Program-made: the position numbers and the translations under genes
NCBI RefSeq assembly: GCF_030611305.1
Contig: NZ_JAUWQB010000024.1
Coordinates: forward strand, 1 to 44,448
DNA: 44,448 nucleotides
Origin: Desulfobacula sp.
GTDB lineage: Bacteria > Desulfobacterota > Desulfobacteria > Desulfobacterales > Desulfobacteraceae
Reading direction: 5' to 3'
In this document: positions 1 through 9,656 of the stretch, in pieces
How the letters are laid out: each line of letters starts with the position of its first letter
Numbering within the stretch: the first letter of the stretch is position 1
The notes under the pieces: model-generated
Databases searched by the model: none
What the model was told of the DNA's origin: nothing
Seen by the model: only the letters and a program-made list of their open reading frames with translations

Positions 1-906
1 TTTTCTTTTTTTATTGCCACGAGGATTTATATCAATTATTGGGACGTGTTCCAGAGATCGGCTGTGTTGTTTGATAATGGGTGAATCATATGCAGAATCC
101 ATCAAGTCATATAAATTGGTTACTCGCTGGCTGGTAAGCTCAGCCAATGGAAGTGCCGCCTGGCTGTCATGCAGCGAAGCTGAAGTCAGGACACAACTTA
201 TGGGGATATGCCCATCTGCTGCATCTATGTGCAGTTTATATCCGATCCAGGATTTCTTGTAACCCTTGCTGTTCCTTTTGGTCCCCACATCACAGACTTT
301 GGGCAACTCTTCAAGCATTTCTTTTGTCCCCATTGATTGTTGTCGTTCTAACCGGGTTGGCTCTTTTATTCGCACTTCACCTTTTCTGGGACGGCCTCTT
401 TTTTTCTTTTGTTTTGGCGGTTTGTTGTTTTTTCTCATAGGCTTCTCTCGGGCATCAATTGATGTGGAATCCCTTGATATGTGCCCGACAATTTTATCAC
501 CCATATACTGTTTAATGAGACGGCTATGGACAATCTGAGTTAATCCTGATTCTGAAAACTCTTTAAACGCACGGGAAAAAGATGACTCATGAGGAATATC
601 ACAGGCTTTTTCCCAACCACAAATCCTTCGTAAAGCCGGGCTGATCTTCAACCGGTCAATTAATTCCCTTGTCGTATCCATATTATAAATAGCCTTTGCT
701 ACGAATGCCCTTGCTATCTGTTTTCTGCTCTTTGGAGATTGACCCTGCCAGTATCCCGGTACCCGGACCATATCCTCAATCCTGATAAGCTCTAAAGTGG
801 TTACCAGGTGTTTTAATTTCTCTGTAAGCGGTTCTTCGACCTGTTTTTCGATAAAAGGGAAAAGAACCTCTTGTACTTCAAACCAAATCTGTGATAATTT
901 TCTCAT
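1..906 (-). CDS. DDE transposase, 3' end cut by the window edge
   Basis: The minus strand is open from an ATG at 906 to base 1, 302 codons with no stop, so the C-terminus lies outside the window. The N-terminal third (about residues 1-130) is the helical DNA-binding region of an IS4/IS5-superfamily transposase, with the recognisable stretches RIEDMVRVPGYWQG and SSFSRAFKEF. The first catalytic Asp is in SRDSTSID (about residue 157), a basic RGRPRKG linker follows, and the second Asp is in DSAYDSP (about residue 278). The final Glu lies beyond the edge. The start is supported by a purine-rich stretch just upstream and by loss of similarity beyond it. Nothing in the visible part is broken, so the element may be active. 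Family placement is from memory of similar proteins; the exact IS name cannot be given. Confidence 0.8.
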   Translation of the reverse strand, partial: MRKLSQIWFEVQEVLFPFIEKQVEEPLTEKLKHLVTTLELIRIEDMVRVPGYWQGQSPKSRKQIARAFVAKAIYNMDTTRELIDRLKISPALRRICGWEKACDIPHESSFSRAFKEFSESGLTQIVHSRLIKQYMGDKIVGHISRDSTSIDAREKPMRKNNKPPKQKKKRGRPRKGEVRIKEPTRLERQQSMGTKEMLEELPKVCDVGTKRNSKGYKKSWIGYKLHIDAADGHIPISCVLTSASLHDSQAALPLAELTSQRVTNLYDLMDSAYDSPIIKQHSRSLEHVPIIDINPRGNKKRK

Positions 907-1258
907 AAAGCTGCTTCTCTGGTTCAGTTGTTTTTTGTTGTGATTGAACTACTGAAATATACCACAGTTGCAGCTTTTCATCAATTATTAACCCTTGTTG
1001 ATTCAAAAAAATTGAATTGTTTTTTATCTCTGCAAGAGGCTCTATTACCAATTGTTTCTCCACCTATTATTCCTGATAATATAGGCCAAGGAAGCATAAA
1101 AGCCTTTTCCAAAAAAACCCCGAACTGAATAGGCTTATTACTTACTCTATCTCGGTATTTGTCAAGCTATTTCTGTTATTTGTTGGGAGCAAATGAATTG
1201 TCCGGATTTGTAGCACATAAACTGTTCGGTTATACTGGAGGCCATAAAGGAGGCTTTC
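907..1258. other. Intergenic stretch between two transposase loci
   Basis: I find no convincing gene here. Short open frames on both strands lack a ribosome binding site and any family resemblance. The stretch probably contains one end of the left-hand insertion element, but I could not pair terminal inverted repeats because the other end lies outside the window. Its right end carries the promoter of the decayed transposase. Confidence 0.5.
1208..1236 (+). promoter_or_regulatory. Putative sigma-70 promoter of the decayed transposase
   Basis: TTGTAG, a 17-bp spacer and TATACT stand about 22 bp before the ATG at 1259, which also has a good AAGGAGG ribosome binding site. The expression signals look better preserved than the gene they serve. 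Confidence 0.5.
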
Positions 1259-1660
1259 ATGAAACGGGCACAAATACTACAGGAGATTCGGAAAATGGAA
1301 TTTGAACGGATTTATACAGGTTGGAGAGCCAAAAAATTTACCCAAAAACAAGCAGCCAGGATTTTAGGTGTTTGCGAAAGGACTTTCAGGTGTTATATCA
1401 ATCAATATGATGATGAAAGCAGGGAGGGGCTTTATGATAAACGGCTTACATAAGCATATCACAGAAGGGCGCCACTTGATGAGGTACTGGATGTTTGTAT
1501 GCTTTATCAGGAAAAGTATTTTGATTTTAATGTAAAGCACTTTTATCGCTGGTATCAGCGGGAACATGATGGAGAGCGCAGATACAGTTAGGTCAAAAAC
1601 ACCTTATATAGAACAAACGACTGGTTCAGAAAGAGCATAAGAAACCTACAGTAGCTTGCC
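1259..1660 (+). pseudogene. Decayed ISNCY-like transposase, N-terminal part
   Basis: The first 64 codons encode a helix-turn-helix start typical of ISNCY-family transposases (MKRAQILQEI..., ARILGVCERTFRCYINQY, GLYDKRLT). A TAA at 1451-1453 interrupts the frame, yet similarity continues in the same frame with HRRAPLDEVL and NVKHFYRWYQ. A second in-frame stop (TAG) follows where the family normally has a Trp codon (about 1589). Beyond that, similarity (LVQKEHKK) resumes in another frame, implying a small indel near 1610. No catalytic DDE domain can be followed downstream. The gene is therefore a dead remnant, with at least two nonsense changes and one frameshift. Confidence 0.75.
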
Positions 1661-2453
1661 GGATATTTATTTGTTTCATCGGCCCCCTACCTTTCCATAA
1701 CATGATGTTTAGGTAATTGGCGGGTAAACTCAACGTTAAACTATATGAGCCAAAAACGGCTTCTGAAGCAATTCTTTCAGAACATATTTTATAATAAAAA
1801 AATACAGCAGCACTTCATTTTCAATGAAAAAGTCTCTGATTTTTCTTGAAGTACTATCGCTTATAGATGGTATAATCGCTTAGGAGTCAAATTCTACAAA
1901 TTACCGAGCGCTTCATCAACCAGTCCGGGCTTTTTAAATATTTCCAGAATACCACATCTGGTATAAACAAGATTTGTAGTCTTTGGTGTGAGATTCATCT
2001 ATATGGGAAACCGCATGACCAAATGAATCAAGATCCCATTACGTTTTATTGGAGAAAAAAAGTAATGGATATCCATTCTGATATGGTGTTGATTATGTCT
2101 ATACGTCCGGTATTTTTCGGAAAATTTTTGAACCTGATTTTAGCCAGTCCCCACCCAAAATTCTTTCGGTTATATCTGTCAAATCTTCAAATAATTTATC
2201 AAGAATTGAATTGATATCATTGATACTTTGAAAGCCATATAACAGTTTCCATAAGGATAATCATTGACTTGAGGGAGCCTCTTCGCCATTCCCGGAAGGT
2301 GATGTTTAAGTCAGAAACACCGCCTATCTTAGATAATTCCATTGACTAAAGTCTCTCCCAGGAATATTGGTATGAGAAGAAATAATTAATTACAATTATC
2401 AAAGCAAAATCTGAGAATTATATATTCATTCAAGCCTAATAGGGAGATGATCA
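1661..2453. other. Non-coding or heavily decayed DNA
   Basis: About 0.8 kb with no supportable gene. A 63-codon open frame at 2023-2214 has no ribosome binding site and no recognisable family. The stretch probably contains more decayed mobile DNA, but I cannot identify fragments with confidence. Confidence 0.5.
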
Positions 2454-2522
2454 ATGCGATTAATTGAATGGGAAGTTACAGAAGCTGTATGGGAAAGACA
2501 AATCAGGATCAGGTTAATTTAA
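2454..2522 (+). CDS. 22-codon mini-ORF abutting the ParB-methyltransferase gene
   Basis: ATG at 2454 follows an AGGGAGA ribosome binding site at about 2440. The 22-residue peptide begins MRLIEWEVTE and ends with TAA directly against the ATG at 2523 of the next gene, with no intervening base. The downstream gene has no obvious ribosome binding site of its own apart from AGGATCAGG inside this mini-ORF, so translational coupling or a leader-peptide role is possible. It could equally be the 3' remnant of a lost upstream gene. No homology is recognised. Confidence 0.4.
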   Translation: MRLIEWEVTEAVWERQIRIRLI

Positions 2523-3986
2523 ATGGCTATGCGCGAAGAAGTTAACGAAAGAGTTGCCACATCAGATGTCACATTGGATGAGTCTATCTATCCAAGAGAA
2601 AAAATTGACCATAAACGTGTCAGTATTTTTGCTGAAAATTTAAGGGATGGCTTTAAATTTGAACCGATTCAAGTTCAAATTCATCCTGAAAAAGAAGGGA
2701 AATACCGGATATTGGATGGAGTGCATAGATGGAACGCTCATAAAGAAGTTGGTTTAACTGATATACCGGTGATTATTAAAGATTTAAAAGGAATTGATCC
2801 TTTGCTTTATGCCGCTAAAATGGCAATTGGTCCAAAGCAGCTCACTGAAGAGGAAACCAGATCTACAGCTCGACGCGCTTTTCAAAATAATCCCCAGTTA
2901 ACCTCTTCTGAAATTGGCAAACTCATTGGCAGATCCCGACAGACAATTGACAATTATATTGCAGATCTAAGAGCAGTTCGACAAATTAAGATTGACCAAA
3001 AAATCTGGCGGATGAACCGGCTGGGAATTCCTCAAGAAAGAATTGCCAGGCGTTTAGGGGAGACCAGAGATGTTATCCGGAGCCATTTGGGGGAAATGCC
3101 AATTATGGCAAAATCCCCAAATAGCGATTTGTCCAAAGGATTAACTATTCCCCAGGTGGCTGCCAAACATGGGTGGAGCGAGCCCATGCTGTGGTCGCTG
3201 GTTTTAGAGGGAAAACCCGATCAAACCCGTTTTAAAAACTTAGGTTGGGGGTTGCGCACATGGGATTTGTGGAACTTCAATGATTGTGATCCCCGGTTCG
3301 GAGATGACTGGCCGGGACGTATTCCAGCCCAGATGATCGGACACATACTTTTTTATTTTTCCAATCCCGATGACTTGATTTTTGATCCAATGGCAGGTGG
3401 CGGTGTAACAGCAGATACGTGTCTGGCTTTAGGTAGAAGGTGCTGGAGTCTGGATATGGAAGACCGGGCAGACCTTCGCCCTGAAATTGAACACTATTAC
3501 TGGGATATGACGATTAAAAGCTGGGAAGATACGATTCTGGAAAGCAGGGAAAAGCCAGACCTGATTATTTTTGATCCTCCCTATTTTCAGAAAAAGGCCG
3601 CAAGCTACGGGGAAAACAGCATAGCCCGGCTGCCCCGCCTTGAATACCTGCATTTTCTGGAAAATTTTTTCAGGTTTCTCAAAACAACCGCCAAGAAAAC
3701 CACCAGGCTTGCCTTAATCAATTCTGACTGGCGTGATTTTCAAAGTTGTCCTGCTTTAAAAGAAGAAACGCAAAACGCAATCCTGCTGACGGATTATTAT
3801 AAAATATTGGAACCGGCAGGATGGGAATTGACCCATATCATTCAGGCACCATTGTCCTCGGAACGGTTTAACGCAATTATAGTAAGTGCAATGCAGGAGA
3901 AAAAAATCTTAGGCGTTACCAGCCGTTATATTCTTCTGCTGAAACTAAAAATGGATATAGAAAAAAATAATATATCAGGAAAATAG
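2523..3986 (+). CDS. ParB-like / DNA methyltransferase fusion protein
   Basis: This is a 487-residue protein with two joined modules. Residues about 15-90 form a ParB/Srx-type nuclease-like domain with the DGVHRW core (65-70). Helix-turn-helix-like segments follow at about 126-150 (SEIGKLIGRSRQTIDNYI), 166-189 and 207-225. The C-terminal half is an amino-methyltransferase: motif I DPMAGGG (288-294, AdoMet binding) and motif IV DPPY (351-354, catalytic), in the order I then IV. DPPY is most usual in N6-adenine enzymes, but N4-cytosine cannot be excluded. No restriction gene adjoins it, so it looks like an orphan or regulatory methylase, perhaps from a plasmid, phage or integrative element. It is intact between decayed transposase and integrase genes, which hints at selection or recent arrival. 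The target sequence is unknown. Confidence 0.85.
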   Translation: MAMREEVNERVATSDVTLDESIYPREKIDHKRVSIFAENLRDGFKFEPIQVQIHPEKEGKYRILDGVHRWNAHKEVGLTDIPVIIKDLKGIDPLLYAAKMAIGPKQLTEEETRSTARRAFQNNPQLTSSEIGKLIGRSRQTIDNYIADLRAVRQIKIDQKIWRMNRLGIPQERIARRLGETRDVIRSHLGEMPIMAKSPNSDLSKGLTIPQVAAKHGWSEPMLWSLVLEGKPDQTRFKNLGWGLRTWDLWNFNDCDPRFGDDWPGRIPAQMIGHILFYFSNPDDLIFDPMAGGGVTADTCLALGRRCWSLDMEDRADLRPEIEHYYWDMTIKSWEDTILESREKPDLIIFDPPYFQKKAASYGENSIARLPRLEYLHFLENFFRFLKTTAKKTTRLALINSDWRDFQSCPALKEETQNAILLTDYYKILEPAGWELTHIIQAPLSSERFNAIIVSAMQEKKILGVTSRYILLLKLKMDIEKNNISGK

Positions 3987-4425
3987 TAATCTTTTTGATT
4001 TTTGTTCCCAGTAATTCTCCTATCCTCATGCCCGTTCTTAAAAGAACCAGGATTAATGCTCGTTCCCGGGCAGTATTTATAACAGATAGAAAAAGCTTGA
4101 TATCGTCTGGATCAATCGCTTTTGGAAGTAAATCCGGAATTTTTAATCTAAATTTATTTTTAATGATATCTGAACTGATCACATCTTTTTCAGCCAGAAA
4201 TCCAAAAATCGCATACAGGCTTCTTAAGTATCCATTAATAGAAGATGCCATCAAATTATCGTCTTGTAAATATTCGATGAATGCACCTAAATGTTTTCTA
4301 TCAACAAATTCAAGCCCGTTTATATCCAATGATTTAAAAAACAGAAAAAATCTATTAAGTCCATGAAAATATTGTACCCTGCAAACAATTCTATCCAATC
4401 TCAGGAGCAAAAAAAACCTGGTCAT
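3916..4425 (-). pseudogene. Truncated tyrosine recombinase (phage-type integrase) remnant
   Basis: The minus-strand frame encodes an N-terminal core-binding domain (about residues 30-95, with LGAFIEYLQDDNLMASSINGYLRSLYAIF) and the start of the catalytic domain, including the first catalytic Arg in RTGMRIGELL. Similarity stops a few residues later; the remaining 20-odd residues read through the 3' end of the methyltransferase gene in antisense. The later H-x-x-R and catalytic Tyr motifs are absent, so the enzyme is dead. Its 5' end points at tRNA-Phe, about 120 bp away, the usual arrangement of an integrase at its attachment site. The break lies at about 3990-4005, just past the methyltransferase stop, and marks a deletion or insertion junction. 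Confidence 0.75.
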
Positions 4426-4501
4426 ATTTTGGCTGGGTTTTTTTATTGGGTGTGTCAGAATTAAAAAACCACGTTAAGAACCACAATAACGAACTGTATC
4501 A

Positions 4502-4540
4502 AATAAAAAAGCTTTCAGGTAAAAATCACCTAAAGCCTCT
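4502..4540 (-). terminator. Rho-independent terminator of tRNA-Phe
   Basis: Read on the minus strand, GGCTTTAGGT pairs with ACCTGAAAGC (one bulged base) around a 7-nt loop and is followed by a run of T. It begins about 10 bases after the encoded CCA end of the tRNA. Confidence 0.7.
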
Positions 4541-4547
4541 TATGTTG

Positions 4548-4623
4548 TGGTGCCCAGGGACAGAATTGAACTGCCGACACGGGGATTTTCAGTCCCCTGC
4601 TCTACCGACTGAGCTACCTGGGC
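4548..4623 (-). tRNA. tRNA-Phe (GAA), CCA encoded
   Basis: The 76-base minus-strand gene folds as a standard cloverleaf. The acceptor arms GCCCAGG and CCTGGGC pair, the D arm contains AGCTCAGTCGGTAGAGC, the anticodon loop CTGAAAA between GGGGA and TCCCC gives anticodon GAA, and the T arm contains GTTCAATTC. The CCA end is encoded. A strong promoter lies 17 bases upstream and a terminator directly downstream, so it is transcribed alone. A broken integrase lies downstream of its 3' end, so the gene is a likely former attachment site. Confidence 0.96.
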
Positions 4624-4639
4624 TCAAACAACAGAAGGG

Positions 4640-4668
4640 TTTATATTCTTTTTGACTATCTATGTCAA
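4640..4668 (-). promoter_or_regulatory. Sigma-70 promoter of tRNA-Phe
   Basis: On the minus strand TTGACA, a 17-bp spacer and TATAAA form a near-consensus promoter. The -10 box lies 17 bases before the tRNA 5' end. Confidence 0.8.
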
Positions 4669-4695
4669 GGAAAAATCTTTGATAAATTTATGCTT

Positions 4696-5427
4696 TTACA
4701 TATCACCGAGGATGTGTTGAACCAGGGTACAGCTTGAAATAGAGGCAGTTTCAGCCCTTAAAATTCTGGGGCCGAGGGAATAAGACAGGAACCCTTTTTC
4801 TTTTGCTAATTCCATTTCATTTTTTGAAAATCCCCCTTCAGGTCCGATAAGAATAAGTATTTTTCCATTGGAAGAGGTTTTTTTCAGTGTATTAAGCCGC
4901 TGGGTTGCCTTTTCCCAAAACGCAATTTTTAAATCATAGGATGCGGACTGGTTTAACAGTTTTTCAAAACTCAATGGCTTTGAAATATGGGGCAGCCTGC
5001 TTCTTTGGCATAGTTTCAAAGATCCTCTGGCAATAGTTTCCCACCGCTTTTTTCGGTTTTCCATTCTTTTTGCGTCAGGGGTGGGAATGGATCGTTCACA
5101 AAAAAAGGGAATCCATTTTTGGATGCCAAGCTGTGTCAGATGTTTGATCACAAGATCCATTTTTTTGTCTTTCAGCATGCCTGAACAAAGTGTGATATCA
5201 ATGGGAGACTCCGTTAAAGAGTCATGCTCATCAATAATATCAAGTTCTATGTTAGCAGGGGAGACAAAAGTAATTATTGCTGTAAAATCTTTTCCTTCAC
5301 CATTGGTAATTCCGATGTGGTCTCCTTTGTTTAACCGGAGAACTTTAGAAATATGTTTTGCATCCTGACCCTGGATGTTTGCTTTTGACGGTATAGTATT
5401 GATTTTTTGAATGATAAATTTTTGCAT
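4696..5427 (-). CDS. rsmE: 16S rRNA (uracil-1498-N3)-methyltransferase
   Basis: The 243-residue protein has the length and order of RsmE. An N-terminal PUA-like domain (about 1-70, with QDAKHISKVLRLNKGD) is followed by a SPOUT methyltransferase domain with a C-terminal trefoil knot. The family signature is clear: ILIGPEGGFS near 192-201 and LGPRILRAETA near 218-228, forming the AdoMet-binding knot. RsmE methylates U1498 of 16S rRNA in the assembled 30S subunit. It stands alone, convergent with nothing, upstream of the tRNA-Phe promoter on the same strand. The ATG at 5427 precedes the conserved N-terminus by few residues and was kept. Confidence 0.93.
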   Translation of the reverse strand: MQKFIIQKINTIPSKANIQGQDAKHISKVLRLNKGDHIGITNGEGKDFTAIITFVSPANIELDIIDEHDSLTESPIDITLCSGMLKDKKMDLVIKHLTQLGIQKWIPFFCERSIPTPDAKRMENRKKRWETIARGSLKLCQRSRLPHISKPLSFEKLLNQSASYDLKIAFWEKATQRLNTLKKTSSNGKILILIGPEGGFSKNEMELAKEKGFLSYSLGPRILRAETASISSCTLVQHILGDM

Positions 5428-5480
5428 TATGTGATTGTTTAAAACAAAGGATGGACATTGTAAATGGGTTTTTTAAATAG

Positions 5481-5509
5481 TTGACACTTTGATCTTGCTT
5501 TGGTATTTT
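5481..5509 (+). promoter_or_regulatory. Putative sigma-70 promoter for the acidic protein and valS
   Basis: TTGACA, a 17-bp spacer and TATTTT lie about 60 bp before the ATG at 5571. The -35 box is perfect and the -10 box matches four of six positions. Confidence 0.55.
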
Positions 5510-5570
5510 TTGACGTTCGCGGATATTGGACAGCACATTGTTTTTAATATCTTAATCAAGTGAGGACTTT

Positions 5571-6074
5571 ATGGCCGATACGACAGATTGGAATGATGAT
5601 ATTTCAGGTGAAGATGAGACAGATGACAGTATTATCGAACTGACGGATATTGTTAAGGAGAGTTCCGACCACACAACCAAAGAAGATGTCATTGAATTGA
5701 CGGGTATTGTTGAAGAAGGAAGTGCCGATCTCAATCTGGATATTGTTAAGGAAGAGAATGACGAACTTGAAGGAGATTTTGAACTGGAAGATGAAACCTC
5801 TTTCAACGAGGAGTTTGAGTTTGAAATAGATGAGCCAATGGAGGAGCCAATAGAGGATAGTTCGCTTGAACATGACCAAGAGATAGTTTCACCTCAAGAT
5901 TTGACTCTGAGTTCGGAACAATTAGAGGCTGCGTTGGAGCGGGTAATTGAAAAAAAGTTTGGCGATAAAATAGAAACTCTTCTGTTTGAGGTCATGGAAA
6001 AAGAAATTGAAAAAGAAATTGCCGAGATCAAGGAGAGGTTGAAAAAAGATCTTGACCCGGCAGGAAACGTCTAA
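5571..6074 (+). CDS. Acidic low-complexity protein with PopZ-like layout
   Basis: The 167-residue protein is extremely acidic and probably disordered over about residues 1-115. It contains repeated short motifs: IIELTDIVKES (about 21-31), VIELTGIVEEG (about 41-51) and a weaker LDIVKEE copy. The last 50 residues are predicted helical, with LEAALERVIEKKFGDKIETL followed by a second charged helix rich in EKEIEKEI. This acidic linker plus oligomerising C-terminal helices resembles the DUF2497/PopZ polar scaffold family of alphaproteobacteria, but the resemblance is in layout only and I do not claim homology. No signal peptide or membrane segment is present. It lies directly upstream of valS on the same strand, with a possible terminator between. 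Function unknown. Confidence 0.75.
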   Translation: MADTTDWNDDISGEDETDDSIIELTDIVKESSDHTTKEDVIELTGIVEEGSADLNLDIVKEENDELEGDFELEDETSFNEEFEFEIDEPMEEPIEDSSLEHDQEIVSPQDLTLSSEQLEAALERVIEKKFGDKIETLLFEVMEKEIEKEIAEIKERLKKDLDPAGNV

Positions 6075-6105
6075 ATTCAGGCGAATTATATATAAAAAAG
6101 GTTAT

Positions 6106-6132
6106 GGGGATTCATTAAAAGGTCCCCTTTTT
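6106..6132 (+). terminator. Putative terminator or attenuator before valS
   Basis: GGGGA and TCCCC pair around a 12-nt loop and are followed by five T residues. A-rich bases before the stem pair with the T run and may extend it. It lies between the acidic protein gene and valS and could attenuate read-through. A T-box was considered but no specifier arrangement was seen. Confidence 0.5.
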
Positions 6133-6161
6133 CATTAATAAAGGGTTTTAGGAGTTGATTT

Positions 6162-8819
6162 ATGGGTTCTGGTTCTATGGATAAAGGATATGAGCCATCG
6201 GGTATTGAAGAAAAATGGTATAAGTACTGGCTTGATAATGGATTTTTTAAGGCAGAGGATAAGAGTGATAAAAATGCCTTTTCTATTGTTATTCCACCGC
6301 CGAATGTCACTGGCGTACTTCACATGGGTCATGCTTTAAATAATGTTATTCAGGATATCATGTGCAGGTATAGAAGGCTTTTGGGATATAATGTCCTCTG
6401 GATGCCGGGAACAGACCATGCCGGAATTGCAACCCAGAATGTTGTTGAAAGAGACCTTGCCGCAAAAGGACAGACAAGAGATCAGATCGGCAGGGAGGAG
6501 TTTATAAAGCAGGTCTGGAAGTGGCGTGAGAAATCCGGCGGAGCTATTATCAACCAGCTTAAAAGACTGGGTGCTTCCTGTGACTGGGATCGTGAACGGT
6601 TTACCATGGATGAAGGTCTTTCCGATGCTGTCCGAAAGGTCTTTGTAAGGCTTTATAAAGAAGGACTGATTTACGAGGGTCAGTATATTATTAACTGGTG
6701 TCCCCGATGCAAAACAGCCCTTGCTGATCTTGAGGTTGAGTATGAAGAAGAAGACGCTTACCTATATTATATCAAGTATCCCTTTGTGAATAAAAAACAG
6801 GGACTTACCGTTGCAACCACTCGGCCTGAAACCATGTTTGGTGATACAGCAGTTGCAGTAAACCCTGATGATGAGCGATTTAAGAACCTTGAAGAGAAAG
6901 AGGTGATGCTTCCTTTGACGGACAGGGTTATTCCTATTATTAAAGATGATTATGTGGATATCCAGTTTGGAACCGGTGCATTAAAGGTTACCCCGGCCCA
7001 TGATCCCAATGATTTTCATCTGGGGGAAAAACATGGACTTCAAAAATTAAAGGTAATTGATGATGACGGACGGATGCTTGACGGTGCGGGGCAATTTAAA
7101 GGCCTGGATCGGTTTGAGTGCAGGATTAAGGCTGTTGAAGCGCTTACAGATCAGAGATTGCTGGTAAAAAAAGAACCGTTAAAACACAGTGTGGGTAATT
7201 GTTACCGGTGCAGGACAGTGGTTGAACCCATCATTTCAAAACAATGGTTTGTTAAAGTCGCCCCCCTTGCAAAAAAAGCATCAGATGCTGTTCGCAATGG
7301 AAGAACCCGGATTATCCCCGACAACTGGTCAAAAACCTATTTTGAATGGATGGACAATATCAGGGACTGGTGTATCTCAAGGCAGATCTGGTGGGGCCAC
7401 AGAATTCCGGTTTGGAAATGCCCGGCCTGTAAAGAGGTTATTGTTGAAGAGATTGATCCGACTCAATGTCCGGCCTGCGGCTCAAAAGAGATTGCGCAGG
7501 AGACAGATGTGTTGGATACCTGGTTCTCAAGTGCACTCTGGCCGTTTTCAACCATGGGATGGCCGGAAACTACGGATCTTTTAAAGACATTTTATCCCAC
7601 CAATGTGCTGGTAACCGGTTTTGATATTCTTTTTTTCTGGGTTGCCAGGATGATGATGATGGGCACCCATTTTATGGATGAGGTACCATTTGATGATGTC
7701 TATATCCATGCCCTTGTCAGGGATGAGCATGGTAAAAAGATGAGTAAATCAAAAGGAAACGTTATTGATCCGTTAAAAGTGATTGATGAATATGGTGCAG
7801 ATGCGTTCAGGTTTACTTTGGCTGCCTTTGCGGCACAAGGGCGTGATGTAAAGATGTCTGAATCAAGGGTGGAAGGATACCGCCATTTTGTCAACAAACT
7901 TTGGAATGCATCACGATTTTCCCTCATGCATATTACAGCAAAAGACACCCAAATTGATTATAAAAAACTTAATCTGGCTGAAAAATGGATACTTTCACGA
8001 TGTACCTACACATCCCTGGCTGTAAAAGAAGGCATTGAAAACTATAAGTTTAATGAAGCCGCATCTGCCGCTTACCAGTTTGTATGGCATGAATTCTGTG
8101 ACTGGTTTCTGGAAACAGCAAAGCCTGCGCTTTATGAAAAAGAGGGCGTTCAAAGAAGAGATTGTGCAAGAGGTGTTCTTTCAAAAATCATAGAAGACAT
8201 TATGATTATGCTTCATCCGTTTATGCCCTTTGTTACCGAGGAAATCTATCATATCCTTCCGGCAACCAAAGGATCTGTTATGGCCGCCTGTTTTCCATAT
8301 AGTGAAAAAGAATATGAAACCAACAGGAATGAAGCTGTTGAAAAGGAGATGGCCTTTGTATTTGATTTGATCTCCGGTATTCGGAATATCAGAAGCGAGA
8401 TGAATATTCAGCCGTCCATGAAAATAAAAGTGCTGGCACATACTATGGATGAAAAAGAAAAAATCAGTATTGCTGAAAATAAATCCATTATTGTAAATCT
8501 TGCAACGCTTGAAAGTTTTTATTTTTGTGAAGCGGATAATATCCCTTCATCCAGTGCATCCTCCGTCACCGGGAACACTATATGCTTTGTTTTGCTTGAG
8601 GGGGTTGTTGACTTTGATAAGGAGATTAAGCGGCTTGAAAAAGAACTTGAAAAAAACACCAAAGAGCTTTTGACTGTACAAAAAAGACTTCATAATGAAA
8701 GTTTTCTTGAAAAGGCTCCGGAAGAAGTGATCCGGAAAGTAAAAGGCCACCATGCCGATCTTGAGGAAAAGAATAACAAACTCAAGGAAAATCTTGAAAG
8801 AATACAGGAAATGAAGTGA
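6162..8819 (+). CDS. valS: Valine-tRNA ligase
   Basis: The 885-residue class I aminoacyl-tRNA synthetase attaches valine to tRNA-Val. The HIGH motif appears as HMGH at 54-57 within PPPNVTGVLHMGHAL, and the KMSKS motif is at 526-530. ATTRPETMFGDTAVAV marks the CP1 editing domain that removes mischarged threonine. Two CPxC-type zinc-binding pairs (CPAC) lie near residues 425 and 443. The C-terminal 70 residues form the coiled-coil arm typical of ValRS. The start at 6162 has TAGGAG nine bases upstream; an in-frame ATG at 6177 is an alternative. The nadC gene begins 6 bases after the stop, so the two are probably co-transcribed. Confidence 0.97.
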   Translation: MGSGSMDKGYEPSGIEEKWYKYWLDNGFFKAEDKSDKNAFSIVIPPPNVTGVLHMGHALNNVIQDIMCRYRRLLGYNVLWMPGTDHAGIATQNVVERDLAAKGQTRDQIGREEFIKQVWKWREKSGGAIINQLKRLGASCDWDRERFTMDEGLSDAVRKVFVRLYKEGLIYEGQYIINWCPRCKTALADLEVEYEEEDAYLYYIKYPFVNKKQGLTVATTRPETMFGDTAVAVNPDDERFKNLEEKEVMLPLTDRVIPIIKDDYVDIQFGTGALKVTPAHDPNDFHLGEKHGLQKLKVIDDDGRMLDGAGQFKGLDRFECRIKAVEALTDQRLLVKKEPLKHSVGNCYRCRTVVEPIISKQWFVKVAPLAKKASDAVRNGRTRIIPDNWSKTYFEWMDNIRDWCISRQIWWGHRIPVWKCPACKEVIVEEIDPTQCPACGSKEIAQETDVLDTWFSSALWPFSTMGWPETTDLLKTFYPTNVLVTGFDILFFWVARMMMMGTHFMDEVPFDDVYIHALVRDEHGKKMSKSKGNVIDPLKVIDEYGADAFRFTLAAFAAQGRDVKMSESRVEGYRHFVNKLWNASRFSLMHITAKDTQIDYKKLNLAEKWILSRCTYTSLAVKEGIENYKFNEAASAAYQFVWHEFCDWFLETAKPALYEKEGVQRRDCARGVLSKIIEDIMIMLHPFMPFVTEEIYHILPATKGSVMAACFPYSEKEYETNRNEAVEKEMAFVFDLISGIRNIRSEMNIQPSMKIKVLAHTMDEKEKISIAENKSIIVNLATLESFYFCEADNIPSSSASSVTGNTICFVLLEGVVDFDKEIKRLEKELEKNTKELLTVQKRLHNESFLEKAPEEVIRKVKGHHADLEEKNNKLKENLERIQEMK

Positions 8820-8825
8820 GCGATC

Positions 8826-9656
8826 ATGAACACAATTGAAAATATAATCAGGCTAGCCCTTTTTGAAGATTCAGGGCTTGGCGACATCACAACAGAATGT
8901 ATTTTATCTCAAAATTTTTCAGGCAAAGGTGTGGCCGTTGCCAAAGAGTCGTTTGTTCTTGCCGGAATTGGAGTGGCAAAAAAGGTATTTAAACTTTTGG
9001 ATTCTGATTGTGTGTTTTTTTCTTCATTTTCAGATGGTGATCCTATCAAGGAAGGGAAGATTATTTTTAAGGTTCAAGGAGATCTTTTATCTCTTTTAAA
9101 AGGAGAGAGGGTGGCCTTAAATTTTTTACAGCGACTCTCGGGAATCGCAACATTGACCCGTTCCTATGTGAAAGAACTAAGCTTTCCGAATGTCCGCCTG
9201 ACAGATACGAGAAAAACAACGCCCGGATTGCGCAGTCTTGAAAAAGAAGCGGTCAGAGCGGGAGGAGCGCATAACCACCGTATGTCTTTATATGACGGCA
9301 TTTTGATCAAGGATAATCATATTGCGATTGCAGGCTCCATCAAGAATGCGGTGAGGGCCGTTAAAAACAGAACATCCCATTTAATGAAAATAGAGGTTGA
9401 AGTTTCAAATCTTGATGAAGTCAAAGAGGCAATTGATGCGGGAGCCCACGTGATCATGCTGGATAATATGGATTATGACCAGATGACCGAGGCGGTAAAA
9501 CATATTAACGGCAGGGCCGTTGTGGAGGCCTCTGGAAATGTCTCTTTGGAAACATTGAACAAAATTGCAGCCACAGGTGTAGATGTAATTTCCTGTGGTG
9601 CGCTCACCCATCAGGCAAGGTCTGTGGACATAAGTATGCGGATCAATACAACCTGA
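8826..9656 (+). CDS. nadC: Nicotinate-nucleotide pyrophosphorylase (quinolinate phosphoribosyltransferase)
   Basis: The 276-residue enzyme converts quinolinate and PRPP to nicotinate mononucleotide, CO2 and pyrophosphate in de novo NAD synthesis. The family signatures are present: LNFLQRLSGIAT (about 99-110), TDTRKTTPGLRSLEK (about 127-141), GGAHNHRMSLYDGILIKDNH (about 147-166) and EVEVSNLDEVKEA near 191. The late glycine-rich segment EASGNVSLETL closes the barrel. Length is standard. It follows valS after 6 bases and ends 31 bp from the convergent diguanylate cyclase gene. No other nad gene is in the window. Confidence 0.95.
   Translation: MNTIENIIRLALFEDSGLGDITTECILSQNFSGKGVAVAKESFVLAGIGVAKKVFKLLDSDCVFFSSFSDGDPIKEGKIIFKVQGDLLSLLKGERVALNFLQRLSGIATLTRSYVKELSFPNVRLTDTRKTTPGLRSLEKEAVRAGGAHNHRMSLYDGILIKDNHIAIAGSIKNAVRAVKNRTSHLMKIEVEVSNLDEVKEAIDAGAHVIMLDNMDYDQMTEAVKHINGRAVVEASGNVSLETLNKIAATGVDVISCGALTHQARSVDISMRINTT

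Follow-up and report, generated by a model that had tools for sequence, protein, structure and literature searches.

Introduction

The closest described relatives of the gene examined here are fusions of the ParB-CTPase fold to an N6_N4 methyltransferase (Kaljevic et al. 2025, PMC12704722), which have the same two Pfam domains per chain and keep the same GxxR motif. In the part of that article available to us, NTP was bound by 11 of 28 purified members of the ParB fold, ATP or GTP binding was found in some members, and ATP was the nucleotide bound by bacterial fusions to SAM-dependent methyltransferases. In the proteins examined there, nucleotide binding depended on GxxR and was lost when its arginine was mutated; Box III was often missing in orphan members of the fold. 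ParB-N6_N4 fusions were also commoner in phages and enriched in prophage regions. The same part of the article treats these fusions as classes, with no mention of a multicopy spread in sulfate reducers, of the small partner gene here called S, or of a CRISPR locus.

Other known systems resemble the gene in one respect each. Chromosomal ParB, Noc and KorB share its N-terminal fold (Z up to 15.0) followed by a helix-turn-helix (HTH), whereas the protein studied here has no ENxxR box and carries a methylase in place of their C-terminal part. Orphan amino-methyltransferases, represented by the type II methyltransferase models of PADLOC, have motifs I and IV in common with it (partial profile matches, best 8.1e-12), but in our protein motif I comes before motif IV and a ParB head serves as the target part. 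Type III-A (Csm) CRISPR-Cas systems with Csx1 and Csx20 enter the comparison through a relative, locus L168, where Cas10, Csm3-Csm5, Csx20, an array, Csx1 and Cas1 surround S and the methyltransferase gene; compared with Csx1 loci that lack the methyltransferase, this pair is extra.

The DNA analysed is a 44,448-nucleotide stretch from Desulfobacula sp. (the window), the whole of contig C121 in a genome of 3.57 Mb and 159 contigs; G, C and L numbers are our handles for genomes, contigs and loci. A preliminary description of it had presented a ParB-methylase link as unusual. Because ParB/N6_N4-methyltransferase fusions are a published architecture in the available part of PMC12704722, the fusion itself is not new. 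What is new here is a multicopy family in Desulfobacterales, the recognition of a mini-ORF as a remnant of S, and the placement of two family members in type III CRISPR loci. We favour, with moderate confidence, the reading that the window gene encodes an orphan amino-methyltransferase guided by its ParB part and left behind by a type III CRISPR locus now lost.

The methyltransferase gene and its domains

The preliminary description placed the gene correctly and was right to call it an intact fusion. It is a single open frame from an ATG at 2523 to a TAG at 3984-3986 with both methylase motifs kept, and a ParB domain, an HTH and an amino-methyltransferase all score above their Pfam cut-offs in the one protein (Table 1). 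ParB_N (PF02195) reaches 31.2 bits against a cut-off of 26.3. N6_N4_Mtase (PF01555) reaches 49.2 bits (8.5e-13) against 26.7 over residues 244-314, the best methylase stretch, which fits profile positions 138-213 of 221. Further HTH families in the Pfam list were all below their own cut-offs. The best named matches of the gene are Desulfobacula MAGs, including Desulfobacula sp. SI073_bin145 and Candidatus Desulfobacula maris (order Desulfobacterales).

Table 1. Features of the window around the methyltransferase gene.
Feature	Position	Strand	Basis
Putative transposase remnant	1259-1453		Preliminary description
Degenerate terminal CRISPR repeat, collinear with last repeat of L047 array	2310..2345	+	Alignment
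Leader shared with L047 (flank of type III CRISPR array)	2310..2453	+	Alignment
22-codon mini-ORF, internally deleted remnant of S	2454..2522	+	Ends match intact S
ParB-HTH-amino-methyltransferase, subfamily B	2523..3986	+	Open frame of 487 codons, Pfam, model
ParB_N domain, aa 20-89	2580..2789	+	Pfam 2.3e-7; KorB Z 15.0, CTP-bound ParB 7bm8 Z 14.7
GxxR phosphate motif, GVHR, aa 66-69	2718-2729	+	Alignment with Noc
Helix-turn-helix, aa 121-153	2883..2981	+	HTH_11, Pfam 2.2e-6
Methyltransferase motif I, DPMAGGG, aa 288-294	3384..3404	+	Kept in relatives
Methyltransferase motif IV, DPPY, aa 351-354	3573..3584	+	Kept in relatives
Broken putative tyrosine-recombinase gene, abuts methyltransferase 3' end	3987..4425	-	Read from sequence

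Three subfamilies were distinguished: B, to which the window gene belongs, A (about 40% identical), and C, whose full copies have about 590-630 codons and a canonical ParB domain. The AdoMet motif I and the catalytic motif [DNS]PP[YFW] are both present in the window protein, and among copies of more than 380 codons each of them is kept in 31 of the 32 from subfamily B and in all 12 from subfamily A. Since DPPY comes after the best-fitting methylase stretch, motif I stands before motif IV; N6_N4 methylases have the reverse order.

An AlphaFold2 model of the window protein, built from 15 sequences (the window, three MAG loci and eleven viral loci), has a pLDDT of 85.0 and a pTM of 0.78; a first model from 4 sequences was unusable at pLDDT 44. 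Residues 6-150 of the model resemble KorB (Z 15.0, 3.1 A, 139 aligned) and residues 6-105 resemble CTP-bound Caulobacter ParB (Z 14.7, 2.0 A, 99 aligned). Fold comparison was also run with Foldseek.

It had been proposed that the ParB part might lend the methylase a CTP switch, and that its residues be checked by alignment. The alignment sets GERRWRA of Noc against GVHRWNA in the window protein, and LDGxHR is found in 31 of 32 B copies and DGxHR in 12 of 12 A copies. The ENxxR box (Box III) of ParB and Noc is missing, the aligned place reading AIGPKQL. The idea thus keeps its phosphate motif but loses the box that a canonical CTP switch would have. Because GxxR is kept and other members of the fold bind nucleotides (in the available part of PMC12704722), it is plausible that the ParB part binds a nucleotide; this does not predict CTP specifically, and CTP is not favoured. 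As a separate observation, subfamily C (L089, L090, L092, L041) occurs in these genomes too and fuses a canonical-looking ParB domain to the same methylase, and the subfamily C protein examined has both GERR and ENILRQDL.

Distribution and dispersal of the family

The genome of the window contains 12 protein matches at E <= 1e-3. Two of them (C137, C139) cover the ParB or ParB-HTH part alone, and the remaining ten pieces lie at nine places. The window copy and the C46 copy are full and open, the C6 copy is open with its first residues lost next to a repeat, the C59 copy is split by a frame change, the C11 copy is cut by the contig end, and the others are pieces. Genomes of the same genus have up to 25 (G004), 30 (G014) and 32 (G011) matches, many of them pieces and the weakest including some unrelated ParBs. 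Of 389 genomes sampled across the class, 43 (in 16 of 148 genera) contain the family by a ten-row profile at E <= 1e-25, and all 43 are in the same order, Desulfobacterales; copy numbers in this survey are lower bounds because at most four candidates were scored per genome. The family is therefore both patchy and multicopy in Desulfobacterales. Fifteen relatives were found in viral contigs, the best at 48% over most of the protein, together with two partial matches in annotated phages and four in plasmids.

When 61 oriented loci were compared, the DNA common to two or more was mostly the gene, and the flanks otherwise differed, with the exception of a few orthologous pairs and dispersed repeats. 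Close pairs have in common the ORF, 14-213 bp upstream of it and at most 30 bp past the stop; no recombinase lies inside this shared unit, unlike in an insertion sequence. Three copies in G004 (86-88% DNA identity) share 14-127 bp before the start and match to within a few bases of the stop codon, and they adjoin cas genes (Cas1) and, as read from the sequences, thiamine genes and a gene resembling trimethylamine methyltransferase. In a tree of 41 rows (46 were prepared, and five dropped for a stop in the aligned stretch or fewer than 380 codons) the copies of most genomes are scattered, and weak clustering is seen in G004 and G217 alone (24 and 23 of 500 shuffles as low).

Gene-sized copies dispersed among different flanks, the existence of viral relatives, and the prophage enrichment of such fusions given in the available part of PMC12704722 are what might be expected of a mobile or selfish orphan methyltransferase that lands by chance in immunity and other regions, protecting itself or its carrier from restriction as phage ParB-methyltransferases may. 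We take this to be a serious possibility, if not a probable one. It is opposed by the lack of any recombinase travelling with the unit among the loci examined, and no recent jump was caught, since the most similar copies observed within one genome have 88-92% DNA identity. Nor do defence genes beside B show a clear excess, at 13 of 30 neighbours against 4 of 20 controls (the 30 drawn from 35 B neighbours within 400 bp, 47 being listed, and the 20 from 85 controls; of the four hits among the controls, two are cas genes that belong to these B-bearing loci themselves).

Several apparent signs of mobility were set aside. The "identical" copies in G217, which would have been a recent jump, are one 10.8-kb region assembled twice at contig ends (99.97%). 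The identical internal deletions in G014:C312 and G004:C6, considered as a mobile deleted form, belong to an orthologous pair with 2.9 kb of shared flank. Variable 5' ends had suggested retrotransposition, but fragments from every part of the gene occur.

Some repeats were recorded along the way. A repeat of about 112 bp (TTTTTGACCCC...CTTATCGGGGTCAGACCCC) recurs in a single orientation at spacings of 0.5-4 kb, like a cassette array, in G004:C86 at 25-40 kb (L129, L130), G007:C1 at 962-977 kb, G014:C281, G025:C93, G000:C69 and G000:C86. It separates genes read as toxin-antitoxin, PIN and ATPase genes, inside or beside polysaccharide loci, and no integron integrase was seen by eye near these arrays. 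Subfamily A copies are often at or in them (5 of 6 Desulfobacula A loci), and at L184 (6574-8760) part of the methylase portion of a subfamily A gene is repeated in tandem behind the gene. An inverted repeat, CTTGA-N14-TCAAG, with constant arms and a differing loop, stands 109-112 bp before the start in four B copies, L048, L049, L050 and L172. The window lacks this repeat, which may serve as an operator or as a target site.

Genomic neighbourhood and selection

The surroundings of the window gene agree with the preliminary description, which put it among broken mobile genes with no restriction partner. The integrase gene flanking it is broken; over 3987-4378 its DNA is 90% identical to an open gene of 365 codons that this genome also contains. 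The other half of this integrase is absent from window 1-6000, which rules out a clean insertion of the methyltransferase into it. A 120-bp stretch (1181-1300) overlapping the start of the putative transposase remnant recurs at 89% in another genome. No intact gene lies within 0.7 kb downstream, and 2.5 kb of contig remain upstream. No cognate nuclease was found by eye among the ORFs of 1-9000, ORF 4696-5427 being judged in this way, or among 11 window ORFs scanned as controls against PADLOC. Farther along, the protein encoded at 12541-13908 matches RtcR/PspF CARF_AAA_HTH profiles (3e-112) and is probably an ordinary sigma-54 enhancer-binding regulator.

Pairwise dN/dS of the gene is 0.15-0.18 against five relatives. 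Against the closest, L047, it is 0.160 overall and 0.368, 0.131 and 0.097 for the ParB, HTH and methylase parts, so that the ParB part is the least constrained portion of the protein. Judged from these ratios, which average over its whole history, the gene is under purifying selection across the history of the family, and together with a pLDDT of 85 they make it more than a chance ORF. The window copy could still have been silenced recently and be decaying like most of its paralogues, its open frame merely temporary: two of the nine places in the genome are full and open (one of the nine being cut by the contig end), its neighbours are wreckage, and any Csx1 match is gone. Because the frame is open and dN/dS is low, albeit as a long-term average, we think this rather unlikely.

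Relatives in type III CRISPR loci

Our preferred reading, that the gene was stranded from a CRISPR locus, draws on its relatives. The closest of these, L047 (88%), and also L168 (61%) lie inside type III CRISPR loci. L047 (G021) has the order CRISPR array, 22-codon S remnant, B, Csx1, TPR, AEP primase, Cas1. L168 (G217, another genus of the same family) begins with Cas10, a 135-codon ORF (by position a candidate Csm2), Csm3, Csm4, Csm5 and Csx20, and continues with array, S, B, Csx1, TPR, primase, an opposite-strand gene and Cas1. The Csx1-type CARF_HEPN profile matches at 9e-167 in L047 and 9e-193 in L168. Other profile matches are to TPR, AEP-TOTE (7.7e-37) and Cas1 (8.6e-88) in L047, and to Cas10 palm (2.7e-33), Csm4 (4e-100), Csm3 (4.3e-64), Csm5 (2.5e-18) and Csx20 (7.5e-47) in L168, where TPR, primase and Cas1 were named from matches to their L047 counterparts. 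Between the two loci B is 61% identical, which lies within the 54-71% of its neighbours (Csx1 64%, TPR 59%, primase 54%, Cas1 71%) and is as expected under joint inheritance. In a third locus, G315:C109, a fragment of Csx1 comes after B, whose profile match contains one stop. The CRISPR link of B thus consists of two intact loci and one fragmentary one, the other B copies being elsewhere. No ParB-methyltransferase in a type III CRISPR locus was found in the titles and abstract openings of the papers retrieved, a scope that stops short of subscription papers and supplements.

The window itself retains a trace of such a locus. Its flank at 2310-2440 aligns to L047, beginning exactly where the last repeat of the L047 array starts. 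The alignment has 133 columns, 79% of them identical (E 4e-26), and scores 111, whereas 100 shuffles give no more than 28. The terminal-repeat call rests on this collinearity, because the 36-nt repeat by itself (21 of 36 nt) is no better than in shuffled windows. An origin of the window gene in a type III CRISPR locus is therefore likely.

It is a further step to regard S and B as working parts of a type III CRISPR system, with the window as a stranded copy of the module and B methylating DNA (the host's or the array's, for example) in concert with Csx1 signalling. That array, S, B and Csx1 follow one another closely in two genera speaks for this, as do the overlap of S and B in L168, the gap of 12 nt there between the B stop and the Csx1 start (71 nt in L047), and the divergence of B along with its locus. 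Against it, B is missing from the stretch covered in each of 12 further strong Csx1 loci (L190-L201, E <= 1e-86); the upstream side is included for 11 of them, L201 being cut there. Most examined B copies, moreover, are away from CRISPR loci, and the genome of the window keeps B with no Csx1 match at E <= 1e-20. We judge the proposal unlikely. In 7 of the 11 covered loci a Csx20-type ORF lies directly ahead of Csx1 (by eye; that of L190 was confirmed by profile). An impression that the array adjoins Csx1 in the B-less loci proved wrong, as it follows Csx1 in L192 and L194.

The mini-ORF and its partner gene

As had been noted, the mini-ORF (ATG at 2454) ends directly against the methyltransferase, its TAA at 2520-2522 being followed by the ATG at 2523. 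Beside other family copies stands an 86-codon gene, S (MKLIEWEV...IRIQLV), and the mini-ORF matches it at both ends, beginning with MRLIEWEV and finishing with IRIRLI, but lacks everything between. The mini-ORF is thus a deletion remnant of S. Intact S adjoins B in L038, L168 and L182 and A in L070 and L181, lies 2.6 kb from B in L053, and is interrupted or cut in L067, L176 and L185. A match to S was found in 6 of 58 genomes; S has no Pfam match at E 0.01 and no relatives in the viral contigs.

Whether the mini-ORF controls translation of the methylase, as first suggested, depends on position rather than product. L047 has an S remnant of the same length with its stop likewise against the start, B in L059 and L171 is likewise preceded by S remnants with in-frame deletions of this type, and in L168 the S stop overlaps the B start (ATGA), which fits translational coupling. 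The proposed check of conservation, run against L047, went the other way for the peptide (dN 0.435, dS 0.125; 17.5 amino-acid changes on 53 sites and 1.5 silent changes on 13), so at most the position matters. The frame is also broken in L052 and L065, and L048-L051 and L172 have no such ORF; in these loci each B gene is directly preceded by its own AGG-type site. The idea of a leader ORF is weakened, and a functional leader now seems improbable.

Substrate of the methyltransferase

The model indicates a ParB head joined to a Rossmann methyltransferase, a fold from which DNA and RNA substrates are indistinguishable. The structures nearest to residues 234-476 are the tRNA guanine methyltransferases TrmN (Z 14.8, 2.3 A, 163 aligned), then Trm14 and Trm11 (Z 13.5-14.8), which keeps RNA a possible substrate, and motif I is ahead of motif IV in these enzymes as in ours; even so, methylation of RNA (m2G type) instead of DNA is very improbable, for the best-matching Pfam and PADLOC profiles are DNA methylases, and DPPY and a DNA-binding head suit DNA.

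Conclusions

Under the reading that we prefer, the window gene would encode an orphan amino-methyltransferase, most likely for adenine-N6 or cytosine-N4 of DNA, that the ParB fold and HTH helices would bring to its sites and that a nucleotide at the GxxR motif may gate. It would belong to a phage-related ParB-methyltransferase family whose gene-sized units, in some cases accompanied by S, multiplied in Desulfobacterales. The window copy would derive from a type III locus of the order array, S, B, Csx1, TPR, primase, Cas1, from which the array, Csx1 and the rest were lost and S shrank to 22 codons, leaving the methyltransferase alone open and under selection. We infer both the order of these losses and the present activity of the enzyme.

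A CRISPR-linked function of the gene is possible. In its most specific form, S and the ParB-methyltransferase would be an epigenetic module of type III-A loci, co-translated between array and Csx1 and nucleotide-gated at the ParB fold, marking DNA so that adaptation or effector signalling tells self from non-self, with solo copies outlasting the locus; we offer this as a speculation with little probability.

The puzzling stop-to-start mini-ORF is explained as a gene remnant, and the family shows that, without having its own recombinase, a ParB-methyltransferase can come to number tens of pieces in one genome, most of them partial. Should the methylase act together with Csx1 or in spacer uptake, DNA methylation would be joined to RNA-triggered CRISPR immunity.
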